Origin: Pseudomonas sp. FP2335
GTDB taxonomy: Bacteria > Pseudomonadota > Gammaproteobacteria > Pseudomonadales > Pseudomonadaceae
DNA length: 64,000 bases
Direction of reading: 5' to 3'
NCBI RefSeq assembly: GCF_030687535.1
Contig: NZ_CP117437.1
Location: 5,825,501 to 5,889,500 of the forward strand
In this document: in pieces, positions 261-15,503 of the stretch
How positions within the stretch are numbered: the stretch's first letter is position 1
How the letters are laid out: each line of letters opens with the position of its first letter
The notes under the pieces: model-generated
Database searches by the model: none
What the model saw: the letters and a program-made list of their open reading frames with translations, nothing else
Told to the model about the DNA's origin: nothing
Translations under genes and position numbers: made by a program

Positions 261-1772
261 ATGTCCCTCGCCATCGTCCACAGTCGCGCCCAGGTCGGCG
301 TCGAAGCCCCTTCCGTCACCGTTGAAGTGCACATGGCCAATGGTCTGCCGTCCCTCACCCTGGTGGGCTTGCCCGAAACCGCGGTCAAGGAAAGCAAGGA
401 CCGCGTACGCAGTGCCATCCTCAACAGCGCGCTGCAATACCCGGCCCGGCGCATCACCCTCAACCTCGCGCCCGCCGACCTGCCCAAGGACGGCGGGCGG
501 TTTGACCTGGCGATTGCCCTGGGAATCCTCGCGGCCAGCGTGCAGGTGCCGGCGTTGATGCTCGATGAGGTCGAATGCCTGGGTGAACTGGCCTTGTCGG
601 GCGCCGTGCGGGCGGTCAAGGGCGTGTTGCCGGCGGCATTGGCCGCGCGCAAGGCTGGACGCACCGTGATAGTGCCGCGGGCCAATGCCGAGGAAGCCTG
701 CCTGGCGTCGGGGCTGAAGGTGATTGCAGTGGATCATTTGCTGCAAGTGGTGGCCCATCTGAACGGGCACCAGCCCATTGAGCCCTACAAGTCCGATGGT
801 TTGTTGTACCTGAACCGACCTTACCCGGACCTGAGCGAGGTACAGGGCCAACTCGCCGCCAAGCGCGCCTTGCTGATCGCCGCCGCCGGCGCGCACAACC
901 TGTTGTTCAGCGGCCCGCCGGGCACCGGCAAGACCCTGCTTGCCAGCCGCTTGCCGGGCCTGTTGCCGCCGCTGAGTGAGCAGGAAGCCCTGGAGGTCGC
1001 CGCGATTCAATCGGTGGTCAGCCTGGAGCCGTTGAACCATTGGCCCCACCGGCCGTTCCGCCAGCCGCACCATTCGGCATCAGGGCCGGCGTTGGTCGGC
1101 GGCGGGTCGAAACCGCAGCCAGGGGAAATCACCCTGGCGCACCACGGCGTGTTGTTCCTGGATGAATTGCCGGAGTTCGACCGCAAGGTCCTGGAGGTAC
1201 TGCGCGAGCCCCTGGAGTCAGGGCATATCGTCATCTCCCGCGCCCGCGACCGGGTGAGTTTCCCGGCGCGCTTTCAACTGGTGGCCGCGATGAACCCCTG
1301 CCCCTGCGGCTACCTGGGCGATGCCAGCGGACGCTGTCGCTGCACGCCGGAACAGATCCAGCGCTATCGCAACAAACTCTCCGGCCCGCTGCTGGACCGC
1401 ATCGACCTGCACCTGACCGTTGCCCGGGAAGCCACCGCATTGAACCCCACGCCGCAAAGTGGCGACAACACGGCCACCGCCTCGGCGCAGGTTGCCCAGG
1501 CGCGGGAGCGCCAACACAACCGCCAGCGCTGCGCCAACGCCTTCCTGGATTTGCCCGGGCTGCGCCGGCACTGCGCGCTGTCCAAGCCGGATGAAGCGTG
1601 GCTGGAAAGCGCGTGCGAGCGTTTGACCCTATCCCTCAGGGCCGCCCATCGGCTGTTGAAAGTCGCCCGCACCCTGGCGGACCTGGAGTGTGTGGACACC
1701 ATCACCCGCCCGCACCTGGCCGAAGCGCTGCAATACCGGCCAGTCGCCTGCGGCCAGGCCGATCAACGGTAG
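261..1772 (+). CDS. comM: ComM/YifB-family Mg-chelatase-like AAA+ ATPase
   Basis: The protein has 503 aa. The start is the ATG at 261, preceded by AAGGAACG; an in-frame ATG 27 bp upstream has no such site. An N-terminal ChlI-like domain (residues about 20-150) is followed by an AAA+ module with Walker A GPPGTGKT near residue 217, the Walker B segment [10 protein letters not shown], and a cysteine-rich [10 protein letters not shown] segment. A C-terminal Mg-chelatase domain closes it. In naturally competent bacteria ComM is a helicase promoting branch migration of incoming ssDNA during homologous recombination; in Pseudomonas its role is inferred. The stop codon overlaps the 3' end of the convergent glyA gene by 10 bp. 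Confidence 0.95.
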
Positions 1773-3028
1773 ACCGGGTGACGCCGGCACAGCGCAATCA
1801 CCTGTTCGCGCACATGATGGGCGACTCTATCGCTGTCATCGCGCTCCATTGCGTCAAGTACGTCGCACAGCCAGCCGGCCAACTGCTCGCATTCGAATAC
1901 GCCGAAACCACGGGTGGTGACGGCCGGCGTGCCAATGCGCAGGCCCGAGGTCACAAACGGCGAACGTGGATCGTTGGGCACCGAGTTCTTGTTGGCGGTG
2001 ATGTAGGCGTTGCTCAAGGCCGCGTCGGCTTCCTTGCCGGTGTAAGGCCGGTCGGACAAGTCGATCAGCATCATGTGGTTATCGGTGCCGCCCGAGACGA
2101 TCTTGTACCCGCGCTGCTGCAACACCGTAGCCATGGCCCGGGCATTGGTCACCACCTGGGCCTGGTAGGTCTTGAACTCAGGCGTCAGCGCTTCCTTGAA
2201 CGCGACCGCCTTGGCCGCGATCTGGTGCATCAACGGCCCCCCCTGAACCCCCGGGAACACCGCCGAGTCGAGCTTCTTGTAAAACGCTTCGTCTTGCCCC
2301 TTGGACAGAATCAGGCCGCCCCGAGGACCGCGCAGCGTCTTGTGCGTGGTGCTGGTGACCACATGGGCATGGGGCAATGGGTCCGGGTATTCACCGGCGG
2401 CGACCAGCCCGGCGACGTGCGCCATGTCGACCCAGAAAATCGCCCCGACCTTGTCGGCAATTTCGCGCATACGCGCCCAGTCCTTGTATCGCGAGTAGGC
2501 CGAGAAACCACCGATCAACATCTTCGGCCGTGTTTCCAAGGCAATGCGCTCCATCTCGTCGTAGTCGAGCAGGCCTGTCTTTGGATCGAGGCCATACGGC
2601 ACGATCTTGTAATGACGGCCGGAAAAGTTCGACGGGTTACCGTGGGTCAGGTGACCCCCCTGGGCCAGGTTCATGCCCATCACCGTGTCGCCGGGGTTGA
2701 TCAGCGCCAAGAATACGGCGGCGTTCGCCTGGGCACCGGCATGGGGCTGCACGTTGGCGTAGTCGCAATCGAACAGCGTCTTGACCCGCTCGATGGCCAG
2801 CCGCTCGGCCACGTCGACGTATTCACAGCCGCTGTAATAACGCTTGCCCGGGTACCCCTCGGCGTACTTGTTGGTCAGCACCGTGCTCTGGATTTGCATC
2901 ACCAGGGGGCTTGCATAGTTTTCGGAAGCGATCAGCTCGACATGGTCTTCCTGGCGATGTTCTTCGTTATGAATCGCCTCGCACAGCTGAGGGTCGAAAG
3001 CTTTAAGGGTCAACGTTGAGTCGTACAT
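1763..3028 (-). CDS. glyA: Serine hydroxymethyltransferase, canonical active site
   Basis: The protein has 421 aa, the usual length for the family. It interconverts serine and glycine with tetrahydrofolate. The main catalytic landmarks are present: ELIASEN near 31, [13 protein letters not shown] (Tyr55), GGHLTHG near 125, VDMAHVAG (Asp201, His204), and [13 protein letters not shown] with the PLP Schiff-base Lys at 230. The start chosen is MYDSTLTLK, because the 19 upstream codons are not family-like. It is the last gene of the minus-strand run serC-like, benE-like, yggS-like, argD-like, glyA, lying 25 bp after the aminotransferase. Its position suggests it supplies glycine, serine or one-carbon units to the pathway rather than serving as the only housekeeping GlyA. 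Confidence 0.93.
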
Positions 3029-3053
3029 GGTGAAGAGGTCCTTGAGTGAAAAG

Positions 3054-4235
3054 TCAGGCGCTGTGGGCCAGGAGTCGAGTGACACGCTCGGCGATGTCGT
3101 CGATCTGCGCGTCGTCGCAGATCAGCGGCGGCAGCAGGCGGATAGTGGTGCCCCGCGTCACGGTGATCAGCAGGTGTTGTTCGTCACGCGCGCGTCCCAC
3201 CAGTTCGGCGCATGGGCGATTCAGTTCGATGCCGACCATCAAGCCCAGGCCGCGAATCGACACCACTTCCGGGTGATTGCCCAACGCCTCCTGCAACGTG
3301 GCCAACAGGCGCCGCCCCGAGACGGCCGCACGCAGCGGGATCTGGTCCCGCGCCATGATGTCGACCACCGTGCACCCGACCCGGCAGGCCAGCGGGTTGC
3401 CGCCAAACGTGGAGGCATGGTGGCCGGGCGAAAACAACTCGGCGGCCTTGCCCCGCGCCAGGCAGGCGCCAATGGGAAAGCCATTGCCCAGCGCCTTGGC
3501 CAGGGTGATCACATCCGGTACGACCTGCGCGTGCTGGAAGCCGAACCAGGCACCTGTGCGGCCCATGCCGGTCTGCACTTCATCGACCATCATCAGCCAG
3601 TCATGGGCATCGCATAGTTCTCGCAGGGCATGCAGGTACTCGCGGGACGCCGGGTGTACACCGCCCTCGCCCTGCACCGGCTCGACCAGCACCGCGACGA
3701 TGTCGGGATACTGCTCGGCCACTGCGCGAATGGCGTCGATGTCGTTGTAGGGCACGCGGATAAAACCTGGCATCAACGGTTCGAAGCCGCGCTGCACCGC
3801 AGGGTTGCCGGTCGCGGCCAACGTGGCGAGGGTGCGCCCGTGAAAGCTGTTTTCCATCACCACGATCTGTGGCTGCGCGACCTGCCGGGCGTTGCCGTGC
3901 AAGCGCGCCAGCTTCAGCGCGGCTTCGTTGGCTTCCGCACCGGAGTTGCAGAAAAAGGCGCGCTGCATGCCGGACAAACCGCACAAACGTTCGCCCAACC
4001 GCGCCTGCCACTCGATCTGGAACATGTTGGTGGTATGCAGCAACTGGCCGGCCTGCTCGGCAATGGCCGCGGCGATCTCCGGGTTGGCGTGACCCAGGCT
4101 GGTCACCGCGACGCCCGCAATGGCGTCCAGGTATTGGACGCCCTGGGTATCCCAAAGATAGGGTCCCTCGCCCCGGGTAAACGCGACCGGTTGGCGGGCA
4201 TAGGTGTGCATGAGGTACGCGGGTGCAGAAGACAT
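3054..4235 (-). CDS. Class-III aminotransferase of the acetylornithine (ArgD) family
   Basis: The protein has 393 aa. The start at 4235 has AAGGAA 8 nt upstream. Fold-type I PLP aminotransferase features are clear: NSGAEANE at 97-104, SFHGRT near 130, [12 protein letters not shown] with the PLP-ring Asp218, and [12 protein letters not shown] with the Schiff-base Lys247. Family members use glutamate or 2-oxoglutarate with omega-amino substrates such as acetylornithine. The setting, between a PLP-carrier homologue and an SHMT, points to a specialised substrate rather than arginine synthesis. The true substrate cannot be read from the sequence. Confidence 0.85.
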
Positions 4236-4288
4236 CACAGGGTTTCCTTGCAAGTCACTCGATACGTAGGTTGTTCAAGGCCGGTCGA

Positions 4289-5092
4289 TCAGGCGTCCGC
4301 TGTCGGCCAGTAGTAGGCGTCCGGCATGGCGCGGGCGCCGAAAATGGCCTGGCCGACGCGCACGACGGTGGCGCCTTCTTCAATCGCAATTTCAAAGTCG
4401 CCGGACATGCCCATCGACAACTCGCCCAGGCCGATACCCGCCGGGGCGCTGTCACGCAGGCGTTCGCGCAGTTCACGCAGACGTACAAAGCACGGGCGCA
4501 CGCGGACCACATCGGCGGAAAACAGCGCCAGGGTCATCAAGCCGCGAACCCGCAGCGCGGAAAACGCCGGCAGGGCCTGTAGAAAATCCGCCACGGCATC
4601 CGGCGCCAGCCCGTACTTGCTGGCCTCGCCGGAGGTGTTGACCTGGACAAACACATCCAGCTGGCGCCCCTCGATCTGCAAGCGACGGTCCAGCGCCTCG
4701 GCCACCCGCAGGCTGTCCAGCGCCTGGAACTCACTGGCAAAGCGCGCGACCTGCTTGGCCTTGTTGGTTTGCAGATGACCGATCACCGACCATTGCAGGT
4801 CGGTCAGGTCGGCCATTGCCTCCCATTTGCGCTGCGCTTCCTGCACCTTGTTTTCCCCCAGCAACCGGCAACCGGCGGCGTAGGCCAGGCGCAGATGCGC
4901 TTCATCAAAGGTCTTGCTCACCGGCAGCAGGCGCACGCTCGCCGGATCGCGCCCGACCCGTGCACAGGCGTCGTTGATCCGCTGCTGCACCGCCGCCAGG
5001 TTGCGGCGGAAATCCTCCACGCTGGTGGCCTGCGGATAGCGGCCGTGACCTGAGTGCAGGGTGCCGAGGTCTTGCGGTTGGGCGATTGTCAC
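4289..5092 (-). CDS. YggS/PLPBP-family pyridoxal-phosphate homeostasis protein (paralogue)
   Basis: The predicted protein has 267 aa from a GTG start at 5092. That start overlaps the stop of the transporter gene (GTGA, 4-bp overlap), which implies translational coupling. The PLP-binding LLPVSKTFD (Lys60), the GENKVQEA and [13 protein letters not shown] segments and the C-terminal [13 protein letters not shown] and [10 protein letters not shown] blocks are diagnostic of the alanine-racemase-N-like YggS barrel. It is about 35 residues longer at the N-terminus than typical YggS. YggS proteins carry PLP and buffer its supply but have no known enzymatic reaction. Here the gene sits among four PLP-type genes, so it may serve the pathway. 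Confidence 0.88.
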
Positions 5093-6330
5093 TGGGTCGC
5101 CTCCTTGACGGTCACGTCGGTCTCGGCCACTTGTGCCTTGCGCCGTGGCAGGCGGCCGTTGAGCACGGCGTACGCGGTCAGCCCGATCAATAGCCCCCAG
5201 AACGCGCCACCGATGCCCAGCAGGGTGATGTTGGCGGCGCACGCCAGGAAGGTAATCAACGAGGCCTCGCGGGATTTGACGTCCGCCATGGCGCTGGCCA
5301 GGCTCCCGCCGATGGTGCCGAGCAGCGCCAAGCCGGCCAGCGTCGTGATGAAGGTGGCCGGGAACGCCATGAACACAGCGGCCAGCGTCACCCCAAACAC
5401 ACCGATGAGGATGTAGAACACGCCCGCCGCTACCCCGGCGACCCAACGCTTGGACGGGTCTTCCGACGCTTCCTTGCCGGTGCAGATCGCTGCAGTGATC
5501 GCCGCCACGTTGAACGCATGGGAGCCAAACGGAGCCATGAGCAGCGAGCCCAGCCCGGTCACGGTCAGGATCGGGTTGGCGCTGGTCTTGAAGCCATCGT
5601 TGCGCAGCACCAGCATGCCCGGCATGTACTGGCCCGTCAGCGTGATCAGAAACAGCGGCAGCGCCACGCTGAGCAGCGCATTCAGCGAAAACTCGGGCGC
5701 GGTGAACACCGGCGCGGCCAATTGCAGCGACAACCCGGACAGGTCCACGCGGTTCTGCGTCAACAGAAACACCAACCCCAGCACCAGGATGCCGACTACG
5801 GCGTAACGGGCGGTAAAGCGTTTGAGCACGATGTAGGCGACGATCAGCAACCCCACCAGCACCGGGTCCAGGCTCATGCCACCAAACGCACCGATACCGA
5901 ATTGCAGCAGGATCCCGGCGAGCAACGCCGCGGCAACGCCTGGCGGAATCAGCCGGATGACTTTTTCAAAGCAGCCCGACAACCCCAGCAATACGAAGGC
6001 GACCGCGGAAATAATGTATGCGCCGACCGCCTCCGCGTAGGGCGTGGTAGACAACGCCACCACCAGGAACGCCGCGGCGGGCGTCGACCAGGCGGTGATG
6101 ATTGGCTCGCGGCTGACCCAACTGAGAAACAGCCCGGTCACGCCGACGCCAATCGACACCGACCACACCCACGATGCCGTCAGCTCCGGACTGAGCCCGG
6201 CGACCCTGGCCGCCTGGAACACCAGGATAAAGGTCCCGCCATAGTTGACGATCACCGAGATTAGTCCGGCGATCACGGGATGAAACAGGTCGCGCAAGCG
6301 CAGCGATGACGGTGATCTCAGAGAAGACAT
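5089..6330 (-). CDS. BenE-family benzoate/H+ symporter-like membrane transporter
   Basis: The protein has 413 aa and is almost entirely hydrophobic, with about 11-12 predicted membrane segments. Typical BenE stretches are visible: VNYGGTFILVFQAA, EPIITAWSTPAAAFL and GSHAFNVAAITAAICTG. Start at 6330, with AGGA upstream. Characterised members import benzoate with protons, but there are no benzoate-degradation genes nearby. It lies between the SerC-like and YggS-like genes on the minus strand. I infer it moves a pathway substrate or product, probably a small carboxylate; specificity is unknown. Confidence 0.85.
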   Translation of the reverse strand: MSSLRSPSSLRLRDLFHPVIAGLISVIVNYGGTFILVFQAARVAGLSPELTASWVWSVSIGVGVTGLFLSWVSREPIITAWSTPAAAFLVVALSTTPYAEAVGAYIISAVAFVLLGLSGCFEKVIRLIPPGVAAALLAGILLQFGIGAFGGMSLDPVLVGLLIVAYIVLKRFTARYAVVGILVLGLVFLLTQNRVDLSGLSLQLAAPVFTAPEFSLNALLSVALPLFLITLTGQYMPGMLVLRNDGFKTSANPILTVTGLGSLLMAPFGSHAFNVAAITAAICTGKEASEDPSKRWVAGVAAGVFYILIGVFGVTLAAVFMAFPATFITTLAGLALLGTIGGSLASAMADVKSREASLITFLACAANITLLGIGGAFWGLLIGLTAYAVLNGRLPRRKAQVAETDVTVKEATQ

Positions 6331-6458: not shown

Positions 6459-7541
6459 TCAGCCGTGCACGCGGGCAAAACCCTGCATGAAGTCGCCCAG
6501 CGCCGCGACGGAATCGAGCGTGACCGCGTTGTAGAGGCTGGCGCGCAATCCGCCGACCGAGGCGTGCCCCTTGAGCCCGTAGAGGCCGGCCTGTTCGGCG
6601 CGCTGCACAAAGGTCTTTTCCAGCGCGGTATCGGCCAGCCGGAACGGCACGTTGTTGATCGAACGAAACGGCACTTGCACGCTGTTGCGATAAAACCCGT
6701 CGCTGTTATCGAGCACGCCATAGAGCAGCTCGGCCTTGGCCTGGTTGAGCCGGTGCAGGGCCTCGACGCCGCCGCTGCGCTTGATCCATTGGAGCGTCAG
6801 GTGGGTGAGATACCAGGGGAAGGTCGCCGGCGTGTTGAGCATCGACTGCGCGTCGGCGATGCGCGCATAGCTGAGAATGTCGGGGGTGAACGCCTGGGCG
6901 GCATCCAGCAGCGCCGGGTCGACAATCACCACCGTCAGCCCGGCAATGCCCATGTTTTTTTGCGCGGCGGCATAGATCAAGCCGTGCCGGGCCACGTCGA
7001 TCGGCTTGGAAAGCAGGCTTGAGCAGGCGTCGCATACCAGCGGCACAGTGCTGTCGGGCACATCGGCAAATTGCACGCCGTGCACGGTTTCGTTCTCGGT
7101 GTAGTGCAGGTAGGCGGCGTCCGGGTTGAGGTTCCAGCCCGCCACGGCGGGGACGCGATCAAACCCGTCGGCCTTGGCGCTGGCGGCGATACGCACGTCG
7201 CAGTAACGCTGGGCAGCCTCGATGGCCTTGCCCGACCAGAGACCGGTATGCAGGTAGTCCGCGCTGCGTTTGTCGCCCAACAGGTTCATCGGCACCTGGG
7301 CAAATTGCAGCGAAGCACCGCCTTGCAGGAACAGCACCTTGTACGCGGCGGGCACCTGCAACAGCTCCCGCAGGTCCTGTTCGGCCTGGTGGGCGACTTC
7401 CATGAAGATCCCGCTGCGGTGGCTGATTTCCATCACCGACATGCCCGTGCCCGCAAAGTCGAAAAATTCCTCATGGGCTTGGCGCAGCACTTCCATGGGC
7501 AATGCCGCAGGGCCCGCGCTGAAATTGTGTGACCTGGCCAT
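6459..7541 (-). CDS. SerC-family aminotransferase paralogue with altered phosphate pocket
   Basis: The protein has 360 aa. The ATG at 7541 has AGGGAG upstream. It is homologous to phosphoserine aminotransferase along its full length: FSAGPAALP at the N-terminus, EISHRS with His41-Arg42, the Schiff-base lysine in AAAQKNMG (Lys195), and LRASLYNA with the carboxylate Arg333. The C-terminal phosphate-binding pair, His-Arg in housekeeping SerC (GHRSVGG), is His326-Ala327 here (GHASVGG). Losing that arginine suggests a substrate other than phosphoserine. It is first in the minus-strand operon and divergent from the MocR regulator. Confidence 0.88.
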   Translation of the reverse strand: MARSHNFSAGPAALPMEVLRQAHEEFFDFAGTGMSVMEISHRSGIFMEVAHQAEQDLRELLQVPAAYKVLFLQGGASLQFAQVPMNLLGDKRSADYLHTGLWSGKAIEAAQRYCDVRIAASAKADGFDRVPAVAGWNLNPDAAYLHYTENETVHGVQFADVPDSTVPLVCDACSSLLSKPIDVARHGLIYAAAQKNMGIAGLTVVIVDPALLDAAQAFTPDILSYARIADAQSMLNTPATFPWYLTHLTLQWIKRSGGVEALHRLNQAKAELLYGVLDNSDGFYRNSVQVPFRSINNVPFRLADTALEKTFVQRAEQAGLYGLKGHASVGGLRASLYNAVTLDSVAALGDFMQGFARVHG

Positions 7542-7615
7542 AATTGACGACTCCCTGTCGAAGCATGCACGCAGCATCTGGATTGGCCGCCGATGAAGGC
7601 GGTGGCAGGGTTTGA

Positions 7616-7674: not shown

Positions 7675-9174
7675 ATGGCAAAAACGTTCGAGTTGGAGAC
7701 GCTGCAGATGCGGCTCAAGGATGCTGAATTCCAACTGCTGGACCTGCACCAGCGCATTCAACGCGCCTTGCGCGCCCTGATCCTGGAAGGCGCACTCGCC
7801 CCCGGCCTCAAGCTGCCGGCGACGCGGGTGTTGGCCAAGTCATTGGGGATCGCCCGCGACACCGTGGAAAACGCCTACGTGCAGTTGCACCGCGACGGTT
7901 TCATCGTGCGCCGCGAAGGTTCCGGCAGCTATGTGTGCGACGCCATCGGCACCGACTTGCGCGGCGCCTCGCGCCGACGCATCAAGGCTCAGGAAGTCAA
8001 AAGCAACCAGGCCACACCCGGCGCCGGCTTGAGCCAGCGCGGGCGGATGATCCTCGACAGCGGCGGCGTCACCGATCAACAGGTGATCAAGGCGTTCGCC
8101 ACCGGCCTGCCGGAAACCCGCACCTTCCCCACCGACGTGTGGGAGCGCCTGCAACGCCAGGTGATGAAGGACTATCGCAGCCATGTGCTGTTGCACGGCG
8201 ACCCCCAAGGCGCCGAGCCGCTGCGCAAGGCCATCGCCACCTACCTGAACCTCGAACGTGGCGCCAAATGCTCGCCGGACCAGGTGCTGGTGCTGAGCAG
8301 TACCCGCCAGGCGCTGTTCCTGTGCGCCCAGTTGCTGGCAGACGTGGGCAAACCGATCCTGCTGGAAAATCCGGGCTACTACGGCGCCAAGAAGGCCTTT
8401 GAAACCGCCGAGACCAAGGTGCTGCCCATCGATGTCGATGAGCATGGCATTCGCACCGACCTGCTGTACGCCGACCGCAGCGGCGCCCACTGCGTGTACG
8501 TCACGCCTTCGCACCAATACCCGACCGGCGCCACGCTGACCCTGGAACGCCGCCTCGAACTGATCAACTGGGCCGCGGAAAAAGGCAAATGGCTGATCGA
8601 AGATGACTACGACAGCGAGTTTCACTACGACGGCAAACCCACCGCCTGCGTGCAGGGCCTGGACAAGTACCAGCGCACGCTTTACATCGGCACCTTCAGC
8701 AAGACCCTCTACCCCGGCCTGCGCATGGGCTACATGGTGCTGCCGCGCGAGCTGGTCAAGGCCTTCACCTACGCCCGCAGCATGATGGACGGCCACACGC
8801 CGCAGATCCTGCAACTGACCCTGGCGCGCTTTATGGAAGACGGTCACTACAACGCCCACGTGCGCGCCATGCGCAAGCTCTACGCCGGGCGCCAGTCGAT
8901 CATGCTGGACGCGATCGGCAAGCACTTGGCCGGGGTGGTAACGGCCTGGCGCCCGCAGGGTGGCTTGCAGATCCCGTGTCTGCTGCATGAAGGCTGGTCG
9001 GAAGAGAAAACCATCCGCCAGGCCGCCAGTGCCGGTGTGCAGTTGTCCGGCCTCAGCCGACTGTATGCGGGCGAGGAAAAGAAGCAGGGCTGGCTGCTCG
9101 GCTATTCGTCCCTGACCGCCTACGAGATCGAAGCCGCCATGCTGCGCCTGGCGAATGCGCTGAAAACCCGCTAG
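7675..9174 (+). CDS. MocR/PdxR-type transcriptional regulator (GntR HTH + aminotransferase domain)
   Basis: The protein has 499 aa. Residues about 22-90 form a GntR winged helix (LKLPATRVLAKSLGIARDTVENAY). After a linker, residues about 150-499 form a fold-type I aminotransferase-like sensor domain with YVTPSHQYPTG, IEDDYDSEFHY and the PLP lysine in TFSKTLYPGLR (Lys343). MocR proteins sense PLP or a PLP-amine adduct and regulate divergent genes. This one is divergent from the serC-like operon and convergent with the second SHMT gene, so it is the likely local regulator. The 3' end overlaps the small ORF on the other strand by 4 bp. Confidence 0.93.
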   Translation: MAKTFELETLQMRLKDAEFQLLDLHQRIQRALRALILEGALAPGLKLPATRVLAKSLGIARDTVENAYVQLHRDGFIVRREGSGSYVCDAIGTDLRGASRRRIKAQEVKSNQATPGAGLSQRGRMILDSGGVTDQQVIKAFATGLPETRTFPTDVWERLQRQVMKDYRSHVLLHGDPQGAEPLRKAIATYLNLERGAKCSPDQVLVLSSTRQALFLCAQLLADVGKPILLENPGYYGAKKAFETAETKVLPIDVDEHGIRTDLLYADRSGAHCVYVTPSHQYPTGATLTLERRLELINWAAEKGKWLIEDDYDSEFHYDGKPTACVQGLDKYQRTLYIGTFSKTLYPGLRMGYMVLPRELVKAFTYARSMMDGHTPQILQLTLARFMEDGHYNAHVRAMRKLYAGRQSIMLDAIGKHLAGVVTAWRPQGGLQIPCLLHEGWSEEKTIRQAASAGVQLSGLSRLYAGEEKKQGWLLGYSSLTAYEIEAAMLRLANALKTR

Positions 9175-9351: not shown

Positions 9352-10650
9352 TCAGTAGGGCAGCCTGAAGCGCTTGGTCAGGCTGGCGACGCCTTCGCGG
9401 ATGGACGTCGCGGTGCGACGGTCGAAGGTGCCGCTGCGGACCCCGCCGAGCAAGGCCAGGATCATGTCGCCGATTTCCTGGAACTCTTCGATGCCCATCC
9501 CCCGCGAGGTGCACGCCGCGCTGCCCAGGCGGATACCGGAGGTGACGTTGGGCTTGGCCTGGTCGCCCAGTACCGCATTGCGATTCAAGGTGATGCCGAT
9601 CTGTTCCAGGGCGTGTTCGGCGACGTTGCCCGCCAGGCCCCAGGGCCGCAGGTCAATCACCGCCAGGTGCGAGTCGGTGCCCTGGGACACCACCGACAAC
9701 CCGCCCTCCGCCAGCCGTCCGCACAAGGCCCGGGCGTTGGCGATGACGGCATGGGCATAGGTGCTGAAACCCGGTTGCAGGGCCTCGCCCAAGGCCACCG
9801 CCTTGGCCGCGATGATGTGCATCAGCGGCGCGCATTGCAGGCCTGGGAACACCGCCGCGTTGATTTTTTGCGCAATCACCGGGTCATTGCACAGGATGAT
9901 TCCCCCACGTGGCCCGCGCAGGGTGGTGTGCGTGGTCGCCGTGGTGACATGGGCAAACTCGATCGGCGACGGAAACGCGCCGCCCGCGACCAGCCCGGCC
10001 ACCTCGGCGATGTCGACCATCAGGTAAGCGCCCACCTCGTCGGCAATTGCGCGAAACCGCGCGTAGTCCAGCGTGCGCGAGTACGCCGAAGCGCCAGCGA
10101 TCAGCAGTTGCGGACGCTCTTGCCGGGCGATGCGCTCGACGTCCTCCATGTCTACGCGATGCGTCTCGGGGTGCACGCCATAGCTCAAGGCCTGGAACCA
10201 CCGGCCTGACAGGTTGAACCGCGCGCCATGGGACAGGTGCCCGCCAGCCTTGAGGTCCAGCCCGAGGATCTTGTCCCCCGGCACCAGCAATGCCAGCAAC
10301 ACCGCCTGGTTCGCCTGGCTGCCCGAATAGGGTTGCAGGTTGGCGTAGGCGCAATTGAACAGCCGCTTGGCGCGTTCGATGCCGAGGTTTTCCACCACGT
10401 CGACGTTGTGGCAACCGGCGTAATAACGCCGCCCGGGGTAACCCTCGGCGTGCTTGTTGGTGAGGATCGATCCCTGGGCTTCGAGCACGGCCCGGCTGAC
10501 CACGTTTTCCGTGGCCGTCAGTTCAATGGAATGGATCTGGCGCAGACGCTCGGCTTCGATCGCGCCCCAGACTTCGCGGTCCACCTGGGACAAGTGATCG
10601 GCACTGACGAATGGCAGCGCACATCCGTCCCTTCGAGCGAAATTCGGCAT
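9352..10650 (-). CDS. SHMT-like protein lacking the PLP Schiff-base lysine
   Basis: The protein has 432 aa. The ATG at 10650 has CAGGAGT upstream. It aligns with serine hydroxymethyltransferase from end to end ([37 protein letters not shown]). In the catalytic motif the family lysine is threonine: [12 protein letters not shown], Thr242, where the other SHMT in this window has [12 protein letters not shown]. Two further active-site positions differ: His67 for the E. coli Tyr55 equivalent, and Glu216 for the His203 equivalent in VDIAEVAG. Asp213, His241, His138 and the substrate arginine remain. The frame is intact, so it is not a decayed gene. It is either a non-Schiff-base enzyme, a partner subunit or a pseudoenzyme. 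Confidence 0.9.
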
Positions 10651-10744: not shown

Positions 10745-10879
10745 TAGACCATTGCGTGCCGGTTCTACAGACCACTTCGCAACCACGCACCTTGTATCCC
10801 TGGGCACATCGCAAGCGGCTGGCATAACCCTACAAGTGGTCTGGTTACTCCGCCCGCAATGGACTACTGCGCAAGACCA
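10745..10879. promoter_or_regulatory. Cluster of AGACCA motifs in the glyA-like/MFS divergent region
   Basis: The 324-bp region 10651-10974 separates the aberrant SHMT gene from the divergent MFS operon. It holds AGACCA at 10746-10751, 10769-10774 and 10874-10879, and its reverse complement TGGTCT at 10837-10842. The inner two are the extended inverted pair ACAGACCACTT and AAGTGGTCTGG. The first two are direct repeats 23 bp apart, close to two helical turns. This suits a MocR-family site controlling both divergent operons. Promoter boxes could not be assigned with confidence. Confidence 0.45.
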
Positions 10880-10974
10880 TAGCCTGCTTAATATCTGCGC
10901 CGATTCGAGCCGCAATGGCTTTTCCAATGCCCCGGCTCAACAAACGACTCTTCGCTCATTGAACAGGTTCAGCC

Positions 10975-12195
10975 ATGTCGATCGTTCGTATCGGACTGCT
11001 CTCACAGGTCGCCACGGCGCACTTTGTCAGCCATTTGCACATCATGGTGCTGGCGGCATTGTTTCCGGTGTTGCCGGCGTTTCTGGGCGTCAGTTATGTG
11101 GAACTGGGCGTGGCGCTGAGCCTGTTCAATATCGTCACGGCGCTGGTGCAGGCCCCCATGGGTTACGCCGTCGACCACTATGGCGCCCGGCGCCTGCTCA
11201 TCGCCGCCGTGGCCTTGGGCAGCCTGAGCTTCCTGCTGATTGCGCTGTTCCCCAACTACACCTGCCTGCTGATCGCCATGGTCCTGGCGGGGCTGGCGAA
11301 TGCGGTCTATCACCCGGCGGACTACGCACTGCTCTCCCAGGCGATCAACCCCGCCCATATCGGCAAGGCGTTTTCGGTGCACACCTTTGCCGGTTTTCTC
11401 GGCGCAGCGGTGGCCCCGGTATTGCTGCTCACGATTGCCACCGCCAGTCATCCGGGCCTGGCCTTCGTGGCGGCCGCACTGGTGGGCGTGGTGGCGCTGG
11501 GGGTGTTGCTGCTGCCCGGCTCGGGGCTGGCAGAAGTGAGCCATGTACGCCGCGTCGCCACGCCGTCCGACAGCAACGGCGGCCGACGGGCCGTGCTGCT
11601 CTCGCCGATGATCCTGAGCCTGACCTTGCTGTTTGTGGTGTTGAACCTGAGCACCAGCGCGATTGAAAAATTCTCTGTCGCGGCATTGATGCAAGGCCAG
11701 GGCGTGGCACTGACCTGGGCCAATGCGGCACTCACCGCATTCCTGTTCGCCAGCGCCTTTGGCGTGCTGGCCGGCGGTGCGCTGGCGGATCGGACCCGAC
11801 GCCACGGCCTCGTCGCCGCCCTCGCCTTTGCACTGGCCGGCGTACTGATCCTGATTGTGGCCAACGCCGAATTGGGCGACATGGCCTTGCTGATCACCCT
11901 GGGCAGCGCCGGCTTCTTGACCGGCCTGATCGCACCGTCCCGCGACATGCTCGTCCGCGCCGCCTCACCCAAGGGCGCCGAGGGCAAAACCTTTGGCATC
12001 GTCAGCACCGGCTTCAACATCGGCGGCACGCTGGGGCCGGTCGGTTTCGGCTGGCTGCTCGACAGGGGCCACCCCGACGCCATCTTCTGGGCCAGCGCCG
12101 CTTTCATGGGATTGACCGTGGCGTTGACCTTGATGCAGTCCTGGTACCTGGAGCGATCAAACCCATCAACCGCACCGCTCGTGGCCCTTAAATGA
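10975..12195 (+). CDS. MFS transporter, fosmidomycin-resistance (Fsr)-like
   Basis: The protein has 406 aa with about 12 membrane segments. The early HFVSHLHIMVLAALFPVLP stretch, the AVDHYGARRLL cytoplasmic loop and NAVYHPADYALLS resemble the Fsr branch of MFS efflux pumps. It is the first gene of the plus-strand operon that continues with the N-oxygenase. The natural inference is export of the pathway product or self-protection. The start ATG at 10975 follows an AACAGGTT stretch rather than a strong ribosome site. Confidence 0.87.
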   Translation: MSIVRIGLLSQVATAHFVSHLHIMVLAALFPVLPAFLGVSYVELGVALSLFNIVTALVQAPMGYAVDHYGARRLLIAAVALGSLSFLLIALFPNYTCLLIAMVLAGLANAVYHPADYALLSQAINPAHIGKAFSVHTFAGFLGAAVAPVLLLTIATASHPGLAFVAAALVGVVALGVLLLPGSGLAEVSHVRRVATPSDSNGGRRAVLLSPMILSLTLLFVVLNLSTSAIEKFSVAALMQGQGVALTWANAALTAFLFASAFGVLAGGALADRTRRHGLVAALAFALAGVLILIVANAELGDMALLITLGSAGFLTGLIAPSRDMLVRAASPKGAEGKTFGIVSTGFNIGGTLGPVGFGWLLDRGHPDAIFWASAAFMGLTVALTLMQSWYLERSNPSTAPLVALK

Positions 12196-12317: not shown

Positions 12318-13280
12318 ATGGACCGTTTGAACTGTGGAACCGATGACGTGGTTCAGAACATGCTGACGAAATTATCCGGCCTGTGGAAAACCCGCGCCGC
12401 CGTCAACAACCCACAACCCGACTACTGGAACCTGGCCTTCAACCCGGCCAAGCAGGATTTCAGTGCTTGCCTGCTGCCGTTCCGCGATCACCAGGCGTGG
12501 CGCGAAGCCCCGCAGGCCCTGCAATCGCAGTGCCTGTCCTACGCCTGGGGGATCTACAACCTCAAGACCATCTACATCGAATGCGATGTGGTGGTGCCTG
12601 CCTGCGAAGACATCATCAAGACCCCTCCGCCCAGCCAGAACCGCGCCTTGCTGCAAGACGTGATGTCCCAGGCGCTGCTGGACGAGGCGCTGCATACGCG
12701 CATGTCGATCATGGCCTGCAACTACATCTACGACATGCGCAAACTCAAGCCGCTGGACTTCAGCGCGTTCAACCTGGTGACCTGGCGCGAAGGGCTGTTG
12801 GCCAACTGCACCGCCGAATGGGAACGGCGCCTGACCCGCTTTGGGGTCGCGTGCGCCAGTGAGACGCTGATCACCGACTACCTCAAGACCATGGCGGAAG
12901 ACACCAGCATCCAGGCGATCTGTCATGAGGTCACCCGCACCCACGCCATGGACGAATGGAGCCATTCCAGCGTGTTCAGTTTCGTCGCGTCCGACATCGT
13001 GCACGGCCTGAGCCGCAAGGAGCGCGAGTACCTGCGCGCGGTGATTCTCAAGACCGTGCAGATGTTCGCCAACAACGAAATGGGCGCCTGGTCGACCGTG
13101 TTCGCGATGCTCGACTTCCCCCATGCCCAGGACATCCTGCATGACGTCGGCGACAACAATGAGATCAGCGTCTACACCGACTCGGTCGAAGCCCTGATCG
13201 ACCGCATCGGCCTGACCGGCAACGGCCTGGGCAACGTCGACAGCGCAATGGACGCCCTTCGCGAAAAGGCCCGCGCATGA
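12318..13280 (+). CDS. AurF-family diiron N-oxygenase
   Basis: The protein has 320 aa. A full set of seven diiron ligands can be placed with the AurF spacing: Glu88, Glu123 and His126 (DEALH), Glu182, then His209, Glu213 and His216 (HAMDEWSH). Glu88 to Glu123 is 35 residues and Glu182 to His209 is 27, matching the spacing I recall for AurF (101/136 and 196/223). AurF-type enzymes oxidise an amine stepwise to hydroxylamine, nitroso or nitro with O2 and two-electron supply. The stop overlaps the reductase start (ATGA), implying a coupled electron-transfer pair. The substrate is unknown; no p-aminobenzoate synthase is nearby. Confidence 0.88.
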   Translation: MDRLNCGTDDVVQNMLTKLSGLWKTRAAVNNPQPDYWNLAFNPAKQDFSACLLPFRDHQAWREAPQALQSQCLSYAWGIYNLKTIYIECDVVVPACEDIIKTPPPSQNRALLQDVMSQALLDEALHTRMSIMACNYIYDMRKLKPLDFSAFNLVTWREGLLANCTAEWERRLTRFGVACASETLITDYLKTMAEDTSIQAICHEVTRTHAMDEWSHSSVFSFVASDIVHGLSRKEREYLRAVILKTVQMFANNEMGAWSTVFAMLDFPHAQDILHDVGDNNEISVYTDSVEALIDRIGLTGNGLGNVDSAMDALREKARA

Positions 13281-14323
13281 ACGGCATGACACTTCAGGCG
13301 CGCTGCGAAAGCGTTACCCATGAAACCGCCGACATCAAGGTCTTCGCCCTGCGCGCCCACGGCGCCAGCGCCGAGTTCCTCGACGGCCTGCGCCCCGGCC
13401 GGCACGTGGCGGTGAGTTACCCGGACACCACCGGCACGCCCCAGCAGCGCCTGTATTCGATCACCCGCACACCGGCGGCGGACCTGTTTGAAATTGCGGT
13501 CAAACGCGAAGGCCACGGCGGCGTCTCCGACCAATTGCACGCGACCTTGTGCGCAGGCGAAACGGCACCGATGCACTTTGTCGCCGGCGACATTTGCCTG
13601 GCCTCGATTGTGGATTGCCAGCAGGTCGGCATGCTCGCCGGTGGCATTGGCATCACGCTGCCGATCGCCTTGCTGCGCGGCCTGCGCGAACGTGCACAGC
13701 GCGGCTTGGCGGTGCCCGATGTGGCGCTGGTGTTGTGCGTACCGAGCATTGCCCAGATCCCGTTCTTGCAGGAGCTGCTGGAGCTGGAACTGACCACGGC
13801 GTGGTTCGCCTTGCAGGTGTTTGTCACCCGCGAGACGGTCAAGAGCAACGGCCACTTCAAGGCCGGGCGCCCCAGCGCCGCCGACCTGAGCCTGCTGGGC
13901 GCGCCCGAGGCCGTGGTGATTTGCGGCAGCCAGGCATTTGCCCAAGGCATGCGCGAACACACAACGGCGCTGTTTCCTGACAGCACGCTGTTGATCGAAT
14001 CGTTCACGCCGGTAGCGGCCCCCGCAGCGGCGGCCGAATCGCCGTCTAGCGTGCGCTTGCAGCTCAAGGACACCGACCAGGTGGTTGAAGGCCCCGCCGG
14101 CCAAAGCCTGCTGGCCATGCTCGAAGCCGGTGATATTGCCGTGCGCAGTCTGTGCCGGGCAGGGATCTGTGGTGTCTGCCGGGTCAAGTTGTCCGACGGC
14201 GACTACACCCTGCAACCGGACTTCTGCCTCAGCGATCAGGACAAGCAGCAAGGCTATGCCCTGGCCTGCTGCACCTTCCCGCGTTCCGGGACGCTCAACG
14301 TAGACCTGAACCCGCCGGCATGA
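13277..14323 (+). CDS. Phthalate-dioxygenase-reductase-type flavin/2Fe-2S oxidoreductase
   Basis: The protein has 348 aa. An N-terminal flavin-binding barrel carries RLYSITR at 58-64. A nucleotide-binding domain follows (MLAGGIGITLPIALLRGL near 119-136, VVICGSQAF near 213-221). The C-terminal plant-type ferredoxin domain has Cys293, Cys298, Cys301 and Cys331, in the CX4CX2CX29C pattern. It resembles VanB and OphA1 reductases that pass NAD(P)H electrons to oxygenases. Translational coupling to the AurF-like gene makes it the obvious electron donor for that diiron centre. Confidence 0.92.
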   Translation: MNGMTLQARCESVTHETADIKVFALRAHGASAEFLDGLRPGRHVAVSYPDTTGTPQQRLYSITRTPAADLFEIAVKREGHGGVSDQLHATLCAGETAPMHFVAGDICLASIVDCQQVGMLAGGIGITLPIALLRGLRERAQRGLAVPDVALVLCVPSIAQIPFLQELLELELTTAWFALQVFVTRETVKSNGHFKAGRPSAADLSLLGAPEAVVICGSQAFAQGMREHTTALFPDSTLLIESFTPVAAPAAAAESPSSVRLQLKDTDQVVEGPAGQSLLAMLEAGDIAVRSLCRAGICGVCRVKLSDGDYTLQPDFCLSDQDKQQGYALACCTFPRSGTLNVDLNPPA

Positions 14324-14360: not shown

Positions 14361-15071
14361 ATGAAGACTGCAATTGCGCTGCGCCACATACATTTCGAGG
14401 ACGCCGGCACCCTGGAAGCCGTCCTGGCCGCACAGGGTTACGCACTGCACTACCTTGACCCCATGCTCGACACACTCGACAGCGCGCACGTGCAAAAGGC
14501 CGACCTGCTGATCGTGCTGGGTGGCCCGATCGGGGCCTACGACGAGCAGCTTTACCCGTTCCTGCATGACGAGCTGGCGCTGATCAACCAGCGTTTGCAG
14601 TCGGGCAAACCGATGCTGGGGATCTGCCTGGGGGCACAACTGATTGCCCGCGCCCTGGGCGCCAAGGTGTACCCGCTGGGCGTCAAGGAAATCGGTTTTT
14701 CAGCCCTGACCCTGACCACGGCCGGCCAGGATTCGGTGCTCGCGGCACTGCAAGGCACCCCCGTACTGCACTGGCACGGCGACCAATTCGACATTCCCAA
14801 GGATGCCGTGCACCTGGCCAGCACGGCGGTCGGTGCCCACCAGGCATTCGCCCTGGGTCGCAACGTGCTGGCCCTGCAATTTCACCTCGAAGCCGATGTA
14901 AACAAGCTCGAACACTGGCTGGTCGGCCATGCCTGCGAACTGTCGCAAACCGGCATCAACCCCCACGCCTTGCGCGCCGCCGCCATCGAGCTGGGCGACC
15001 GCCTGACCGTGGCCGCCCGCACCGTGATCAACGACTGGCTGGACGCACTGGAAACGCCAGCACAGCACTGA
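14361..15071 (+). CDS. Class-I glutamine amidotransferase domain protein
   Basis: The protein has 236 aa. It has the GMP-synthase-like GATase fold with nucleophile Cys89 in GICLGAQLIA, catalytic His175 and Glu177 in LQFHLEAD, and the oxyanion strand IVLGGPIGAYDE near 51-62. Stand-alone members either supply ammonia to a partner or cleave gamma-glutamyl bonds. No synthetase partner is visible in the cluster, so it might remove a gamma-glutamyl mask or feed ammonia to an unknown step. It lies 37 bp after the reductase gene, within the same operon. Confidence 0.85.
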   Translation: MKTAIALRHIHFEDAGTLEAVLAAQGYALHYLDPMLDTLDSAHVQKADLLIVLGGPIGAYDEQLYPFLHDELALINQRLQSGKPMLGICLGAQLIARALGAKVYPLGVKEIGFSALTLTTAGQDSVLAALQGTPVLHWHGDQFDIPKDAVHLASTAVGAHQAFALGRNVLALQFHLEADVNKLEHWLVGHACELSQTGINPHALRAAAIELGDRLTVAARTVINDWLDALETPAQH

Positions 15072-15140: not shown

Positions 15141-15503
15141 ATGATCGTAGTTTTGTTTGAGCTGCAAGCGCTGCCGGGCCAGGGCGAGACCTATGTCGAT
15201 CTGGTCAACAAGCTGACGCCGATGCTTGAGCCCATGGAAGGCTTCATCTCCGTGGAGTGCTTTCAAAGCACCCTGAACCCCAAGAAAGTCATGTCGGTGA
15301 CCACCTGGCGCGATGAAGAAGCCGTGGTCCAATGGCGCAACGTAACCGCGCACCTGTCGGCACAAAAAGCCGGCCGCGACAAGATCTTCGACGACTACCG
15401 CGTGCGCGTGACCTCGGTGATCCGTGACTACGGCCTGCGTGATCGGGTCCAGGCGCCGTACAACGAGGTGATCGACGCCCAGCCAGCGGGCGCGACCGTG
15501 TAA
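15141..15503 (+). CDS. Antibiotic biosynthesis monooxygenase (ABM) domain protein
   Basis: The protein has 120 aa with the ferredoxin-like ABM fold pattern: LFELQALPGQGETYVDLV, then MEGFISVECF and MSVTTWRDEEAVVQWR, with a VRDRVQAP-like C-terminal tail. RBS AAGGATGAGG precedes the ATG. ABM proteins act as cofactor-free oxygenases in quinone formation, as isomerases, or as small-molecule-binding proteins. It is the last gene of the plus-strand operon, and a strong hairpin follows. Confidence 0.82.
   Translation: MIVVLFELQALPGQGETYVDLVNKLTPMLEPMEGFISVECFQSTLNPKKVMSVTTWRDEEAVVQWRNVTAHLSAQKAGRDKIFDDYRVRVTSVIRDYGLRDRVQAPYNEVIDAQPAGATV

Follow-up and report, generated by a model that had tools for sequence, protein, structure and literature searches.

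A serine hydroxymethyltransferase-family protein without its PLP lysine, conserved in a dnf-type gene block of Pseudomonas

The window, a stretch of 64,000 nucleotides from the genome of Pseudomonas sp. FP2335 (6.06 Mb, single contig), carries at 9352 to 10650 on the minus strand a gene for a 432-residue protein of the serine hydroxymethyltransferase (SHMT) family in which the PLP lysine is absent. The frame runs uninterrupted from an ATG at 10650, with an AGGAG ribosome site 5 bases upstream, as a first-pass annotation of this DNA had reported, and its start methionine is the one from which the orthologues align. An SHMT domain extends over the whole length of the protein, as judged from PF00464 (493 bits), NF000586 (549 bits against a cut-off of 335) and structure matches. 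The host genome contains three further SHMT genes, 49 to 51% identical to the window protein, and SHMT_A, described below, is one of the three.

Several genes of the block lie on the same strand. These encode SHMT_A (1763 to 3085, start probably the ATG at 3028), an SHMT recognized by profile matches and its lysine motif TTHKT, which confirms the normal SHMT placed at 1.8 to 3.0 kb by the first-pass annotation; an ArgD-like class III PLP aminotransferase (3054 to 4253; TIGR00707, 469 bits); a second copy of the YggS family of PLP-binding proteins (4289 to 5092), 40% identical to the other copy in the genome; a BenE-family transporter (5089 to 6330); and a dnfT1-like SerC paralogue (6459 to 7577), 51% identical to the genome's other SerC. 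The ArgD-like protein and the SerC paralogue keep their lysine motifs. On the plus strand, family profiles identify a dnfR-like MocR/PdxR-type regulator (7675 to 9174), an MFS transporter (10975 to 12195), a dnfA-like AurF-family diiron N-oxygenase (12318 to 13280), a dnfB-like FAD/2Fe-2S reductase (13277 to 14323), a dnfC-like class I glutamine amidotransferase (14361 to 15071) and an ABM-domain protein that closes the block (15141 to 15503). Locus comparison found no match to the MFS gene in L039, L067, L079 and L097. The B6 proteins of the block are SHMT_A, SerC, the ArgD-like protein, YggS and the PdxR-type MocR regulator. SHMT_A belongs to the block in all 12 Pseudomonas records that reach far enough (the window, L037 to L045, L076 and L079), and for 9 of them its motif was read, as TTHKT. 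The ABM-domain gene occupies the place that dnfD has in Alcaligenes.

The window order SerC-MocR-SHMT-[MFS]-AurF-FNR-GATase corresponds to dnfT1-R-T2-A-B-C with the MFS gene inserted, the SHMT gene lying between MocR and dnfABC with SerC adjoining. By position and homology, we therefore read the window gene as the dnfT2 of a dnf-type (dirammox) cluster; the first-pass annotation had seen the normal SHMT nearby but had missed the cluster type and with it this identity. In the Alcaligenes cluster dnfT1RT2ABCD, dnfT2 is annotated as a serine hydroxymethyltransferase, and it is from this annotation and the gene order that we take the name (PMC9136411). Alcaligenes DnfT2 has its cluster partners and gene order in common with the window gene, a comparison made by published annotation; by sequence, orthology outside the genus was established with a protein of another order (L097). 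The Pseudomonas block differs from the Alcaligenes cluster in additionally holding SHMT_A, the ArgD-like protein, YggS, BenE and the ABM protein, and the Alcaligenes block also has a protein annotated as pyridoxal kinase. Hydroxylamine production is reported for Alcaligenes dnfABC (PMC9136411, PMC11440038), and in E. coli dnfABC alone produced hydroxylamine (PMC9136411). By homology, the window cluster may produce it as well. PMC11440038 also names dnfABC homologues in P. cedrina and Delftia, and we found the block in a second P. cedrina strain (L067), in a form with alanine at the lysine site. Outside Pseudomonas, L097 was the sole close dnfA match among the sampled genomes, with two others near E 1e-48. 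That dnfT2 encodes an SHMT is already published; searches of open-licence PMC papers turned up neither a family of lysine-less SHMTs in dnf clusters nor biochemistry of the window protein.

Mapped on E. coli GlyA, whose numbering is used here for comparisons, the PLP lysine (Lys229) is replaced by Thr242, encoded by ACC (9925 to 9927, minus strand), so that the protein fails in the residue required of an active SHMT. This replacement had been claimed in the first-pass annotation, together with Glu216 for the family histidine, His67 for the family tyrosine and the retention of Asp213, His138, His241 and the substrate arginine, and the alignment bears out all of these. Glu216 (10003 to 10005, minus strand) stands for His203 and His67 (10450 to 10452, minus strand) for Tyr55; the residues kept are Asp200 (D213), His126 (H138), His228 (H241), Arg363 (R374) and Arg235. 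Two substitutions had escaped notice: Thr47 for Ser35 (10510 to 10512, minus strand) and Ala274 for Gly263 (9829 to 9831, minus strand). The roles of the compared residues are those described for SHMTs in general.

Lysine-less forms were sought in several collections. Among 398 genomes of the genus, 10 (window included) have dnfA at 80% identity or more, and 10 have threonine or alanine at the lysine site of the motif. The latter are 9 of the 10 dnfA genomes plus one of P. parafulva (G117), which is without a dnfA match in its block; the tenth dnfA genome (G145, locus L043) retains the lysine. A chance motif is ruled out, as the reversed control pattern matched 0 of the 398 genomes. In the 84,980-genome GTDB r220 collection, a scan for T, A, S or P in an otherwise intact motif, which other replacements or altered motifs would escape, gave 13 stretches, of which 11 are from Pseudomonas and lie without exception in this block. 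The other two are a Streptomyces stretch without an SHMT match and an SHMT from an Actinomycetota metagenome (L073). Five records are common to the genus and GTDB sets, which leaves 16 distinct lysine-less Pseudomonas records, all with Thr or Ala. As a control, we used SHMTs from viral contigs, drawn by patterns elsewhere in the protein rather than by the lysine motif and counted on the alignment: Lys, Ser35 and Gly263 were present in 80 of 80 (the best 80 of 490). Pseudomonas sp. PDM05 (L076), a nearly identical strain, carries the threonine too, so a sequencing error does not explain the window sequence. The metagenome protein (4838 to 5989 of its contig) has Thr at the site, lies outside the lysine-less family and keeps Ser35 and Gly263; an error is possible there, because it is a single record near a contig end.

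The history of the loss was followed in an SHMT tree of 28 sequences, with 14 lysine-less and 13 lysine-bearing rows in the column comparison; the partial records L070 and L076 were omitted, as were L068, L071, L072, L075 and L078, whose contigs were already represented. SHMT_A and the window DnfT2, 49% identical, fall in separate clades. The 14 lysine-less rows form one clade (support 100/98), below which L097 and then L043 branch, and the clade persists (94/89) when 13 signature columns and the metagenome row are removed. By parsimony there was a single loss of the lysine, and two changes suffice to account for Lys, Thr and Ala; the alanine forms are one clade (100/97), and on the tree Lys is ancestral, followed by Thr and then Ala. 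The first-pass annotation had held that lysine-bearing orthologues would point to an error or a recent mutation. Such orthologues exist beside the 16 records with Thr or Ala, but L043 and L097 lie outside the lysine-less clade, so that the lysine is ancestral and the window sequence is neither an error nor a recent mutant. L097 comes from a genome (G1333) of another order in the same class, presumably of the Burkholderiaceae, to judge from a 23S signature present in the family member G788. Its block has no SerC or MFS match and its DnfT2 has Lys, unlike Pseudomonas DnfT2; a dnfA match occurs in 1 of 289 genomes of its family. Both L043 and L097 lie in similarly B6-rich blocks (L097 without SerC) with SHMT_A adjoining, and loss of the lysine is therefore not needed for the block to work. 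For the same reason the idea that Lys is retained only where SHMT_A is absent proved wrong.

The columns that separate all 14 lysine-less from all 13 lysine-bearing rows are Ser35 (Ala; Thr in the window, Ala in the other 13), Lys229 (Ala in 10, Thr in 4), Gly263 (Ala in 14 of 14), Thr128 (Ser), position 289 (His) and three more. The new histidine, His300 in the window protein (9751 to 9753, minus strand), is present in 14/14 lysine-less and 0/13 lysine-bearing rows. The threonine forms are the window, L074, L037 and L038; threonine pairs with His55 in 4 of 4 and alanine with Tyr55 in 10 of 10 lysine-less rows. Glu216 is private to the window protein (1 of 14 lysine-less rows), and His67 occurs in 4 of 14, the four threonine forms. 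Glu57, Tyr65, His126, Asp200, His228, Arg235 and Arg363 are kept in all 14. A Lys or Arg at position 414 is also new in the lysine-less clade (14/14) and, like His289, lies outside our list of pocket positions.

The gene is under purifying selection. Median dN/dS of dnfT2 is 0.103 (104 usable of 105 pairs from 15 orthologues) and 0.101 over the 91 of 91 lysine-less pairs, within the range of 0.04 to 0.28 of the other genes of the block (YggS left out; SHMT_A and the ArgD-like gene with 3 rows only), among which the ABM-domain gene has the lowest median, 0.04. None of the 14 lysine-less rows contains a stop codon. The window and L076 differ by 2 non-synonymous and 10 synonymous changes in 321 codons, and the alanine codons at the lysine site vary synonymously (GCC, GCG). 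In P. parafulva (L079) the gene is retained, with dN/dS of 0.108 against L044, though its block lacks dnfA and roughly half of dnfB; this strain is a natural candidate for a non-producer that has kept the accessory genes. In that record the interval from the lysine-less SHMT to the retained second half of dnfB (10826 to 11624) yields no match to the MFS transporter, to dnfA or to the first half of dnfB; the B6 genes are still present, as are dnfC and the ABM gene.

With our list of pocket positions, 11 of 16 pocket positions are conserved in the lysine-less clade, against 225 of 300 positions overall (P = 0.82). Of the 135 positions invariant in the lysine-bearing rows, changes occurred at 8 of 19 in the pocket and at 18 of 116 elsewhere (P = 0.012); the pocket count is 7 of 18 without the lysine itself (P = 0.044) and 5 of 16 without positions 35, 229 and 263 (P = 0.16). 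The protein as a whole thus looks constrained and its active site relaxed. Since the protein is full length and under purifying selection with an active site no better kept than the rest, we regard it as a conserved pseudo-SHMT, and its status as a pseudoenzyme, in which an essential catalytic residue is lost with fold and gene conserved, is well supported. The suggestion of a pseudoenzyme under selection in the first-pass annotation is in this way upheld, by a single old loss of the lysine, intact frames and a dN/dS of about 0.10.

An AlphaFold model of the window protein, built with 56 sequences, has a mean pLDDT of 91.5. Less sure blocks are residues 61 to 80 (76 and 69), which hold His67, and 261 to 280 (85 and 83), which hold Ala274. 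Among the Foldseek matches listed, 50 of 50 are SHMTs, the ten best PDB matches having TM scores for the query of 0.90 to 0.92. Loss of the pocket in structure models had been named as a point against the first reading; the predicted structure indicates that the SHMT fold is not lost.

Some well-studied proteins resemble the window protein in part. GlyA (PF00464, EC 2.1.2.1) has in common with it the fold, the length, about 50% identity and most of the pocket residues, but has the PLP lysine, Ser35 and Gly263, all three of which are replaced in the window protein. The K226Q and K226M variants of Bacillus stearothermophilus SHMT (1yjs, with glycine, rank 10 in Foldseek; 1yjy, with serine, rank 12) are likewise SHMTs without the PLP lysine; these are man-made single changes, in contrast to a natural loss shared by a family with further changes in its pocket. 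LCB1/SPTLC1, a non-catalytic PLP-fold subunit of serine palmitoyltransferase, resembles the window protein as a lysine-less PLP-fold paralogue kept by selection, but it belongs to a different PLP enzyme, in which it is an obligate part of the heterodimer; a partner of the window protein is hypothetical. L-threonine transaldolases are likewise SHMT-like enzymes clustered with an AurF-family oxygenase, as in the obafluorin cluster; threonine and fluorothreonine transaldolases are not known to lack the PLP lysine. A transaldolase was rejected for the window protein, which scores 135.6 bits with TIGR04506 (fluorothreonine transaldolase) against a cut-off of 650, and even this match is not specific, because SHMT_A scores 129.5. 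A natural-product cluster of the obafluorin kind was dropped, as the gene order fits dnf.

The reading that we prefer, with a probability of about 45%, is that SHMT activity has been lost and that DnfT2 is kept as a non-catalytic protein with the SHMT fold, the likeliest job of which would be self-protection against hydroxylamine or control of B6 status. Hydroxylamine attacks PLP aldimines. O-substituted hydroxylamines form stable oximes with PLP, according to PMC11557217, and Alcaligenes is described as deploying hydroxylamine against other bacteria (PMC9355588) and tolerating its own 'via some unknown mechanisms' (PMC11440038). In nitrifying A. faecalis, yggS mRNA was ten-fold higher (TPM 2028 versus 207; PMC8629993). 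Because the block is rich in B6 genes and hydroxylamine attacks PLP, we infer a guarding or sensing role. The DnfABC product hydroxylamine would attack PLP, and the extra SHMT, SerC, YggS, ArgD-like protein and PdxR-type regulator of the block may guard B6 metabolism. One-carbon work could be carried by SHMT_A, which would leave DnfT2 free for a non-catalytic role; with this lysine-bearing SHMT in the same block, DnfT2 itself has probably lost serine turnover. DnfT2, having no covalently bound lysine for hydroxylamine to displace, might hold PLP, a PLP-amino acid or a PLP-oxime, or alternatively it might report to a protein partner whether it is occupied. DnfT2 is unlikely to be essential for production, since dnfABC alone suffices in E. 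coli. The step from gene content to protection remains the conjectural part of this reading, and two results weigh on it: a pocket that is not kept better and has changed more points to a structural role rather than to tight binding of a ligand, and the window branch has 46 amino-acid changes of its own against 15 for L074 (outgroup L043; P = 9e-5), as in a gene on its way out.

A more specific version, which we consider speculative, is that the lysine-free SHMT confers immunity to, or senses, hydroxylamine made by the cell itself by holding PLP, PLP-oxime or PLP-amino acid without the Schiff-base lysine, the extra SHMT, SerC, ArgD-like protein and YggS being the protected B6 set. If this is true, DnfT2 would be part of the mechanism of dirammox self-tolerance that PMC11440038 calls unknown. 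The accessory dnf genes have so far been read as 'suggestive of a biosynthetic pathway' (PMC11160463), and redox balance is among other roles proposed for dirammox (PMC12575085); should the B6 genes of the block prove to explain the tolerance, the accessory genes would instead be a self-protection set. The context bears on the survival of bacteria that make hydroxylamine, which poisons B6 enzymes. SHMTs that lack the PLP lysine seem to be very rare, with one natural lineage in a single block and one metagenome sequence in the scan for T, A, S or P, and the loss is traceable stepwise through Lys, Thr and Ala, with the lysine-bearing sisters as natural controls.

The next best explanation, although an unlikely one, is that DnfT2 is a non-catalytic partner that modulates SHMT_A by forming hetero-oligomers with it, or modulates some other protein, for example DnfR, by binding to it. 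SHMT active sites are shared between two subunits, and SHMT_A accompanies DnfT2 in all 12 Pseudomonas records that reach it. A constrained, confidently predicted fold (mean pLDDT 91.5) with a relaxed pocket would suit such a partner, and the clade-specific His289 and Lys/Arg414 could be contact sites. Human SHMT2 is found in the BRISC complex (BRISC-SHMT2, PMC10211241). However, because the two proteins are only 49% identical and belong to separate clades, mixed dimers cannot be taken for granted, and SHMT_A also adjoins the lysine-bearing DnfT2 of L043 and L097.

Somewhat less probable is slow decay, in which SHMT_A made the activity unnecessary and the protein survives for a while as a relic. 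Pocket residues have been lost (S35, K229, G263 and partly Y55, T226 and H203), conservation of the pocket does not exceed that of other positions, and the window branch is accelerated while the window and L074 counts are near-equal for six other genes. A relic is hard to reconcile with the absence of stops in 14 of 14 rows, a dN/dS of 0.10 over 91 pairs, the predominance of synonymous differences between the window and L076 and among the GCC and GCG alanine codons, and a loss common to the whole sampled clade.

We consider altered chemistry, in which PLP is bound non-covalently or a PLP-free aldol or oxime reaction takes place on a hydroxylamine adduct, to be improbable. In its favour, seven residues, from Glu57 to Arg363, are kept in 14/14 rows, the PDB contains structures of lysine-less SHMT mutants with glycine or serine, and the clade is marked by a new invariant histidine. 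The pairing of residue 55 with the residue at the lysine site also points this way, yet it reflects few independent events (two changes on the tree). On the other hand, the key site itself varies between Thr and Ala, no new acid or base has been fixed at the pocket positions, and constraint on the pocket is relaxed rather than tightened. As the pocket is no better kept than the rest and has changed more often than other invariant positions, the altered chemistry raised in the first-pass annotation is weakened. A sequencing error or strain-private mutation is virtually ruled out by the threonine in L076 and L074 and the Thr or Ala in 16 distinct records, and nothing in its favour was found.

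In the stretches taken around the distant AurF loci L046 to L055 no SHMT match was present, and dnfA-like matches on plasmids of Pantoea have no SHMT gene in the annotated stretch. A Pantoea agglomerans plasmid (L080, 9390 to 15174) carries an AurF homologue (67%) in an AurF-FNR cluster of another kind, together with an arylamine N-acetyltransferase, an MFS transporter, a reductase and an ATP-grasp protein. In L016, L017, L019 and L020 the AurF matches contain one in-frame stop (TGA or TAG), which may be real or an effect of the alignment end. AurF homologues (64 to 66%) in L047, L048 and L049 lie near an XRE-like regulator, a TauE-like transporter and an FNR, named from the look of the sequence, and L047 and L048 also have a DapA-like aldolase, checked against NCBIfam in L048 only. 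In a more distant AurF-GATase locus (L050, 4947 to 6257), the MocR protein scores best with PtsJ, of B6 salvage, though its 303.7 bits do not reach the cut-off of 573; an ArgD-like gene (58%) is close by.
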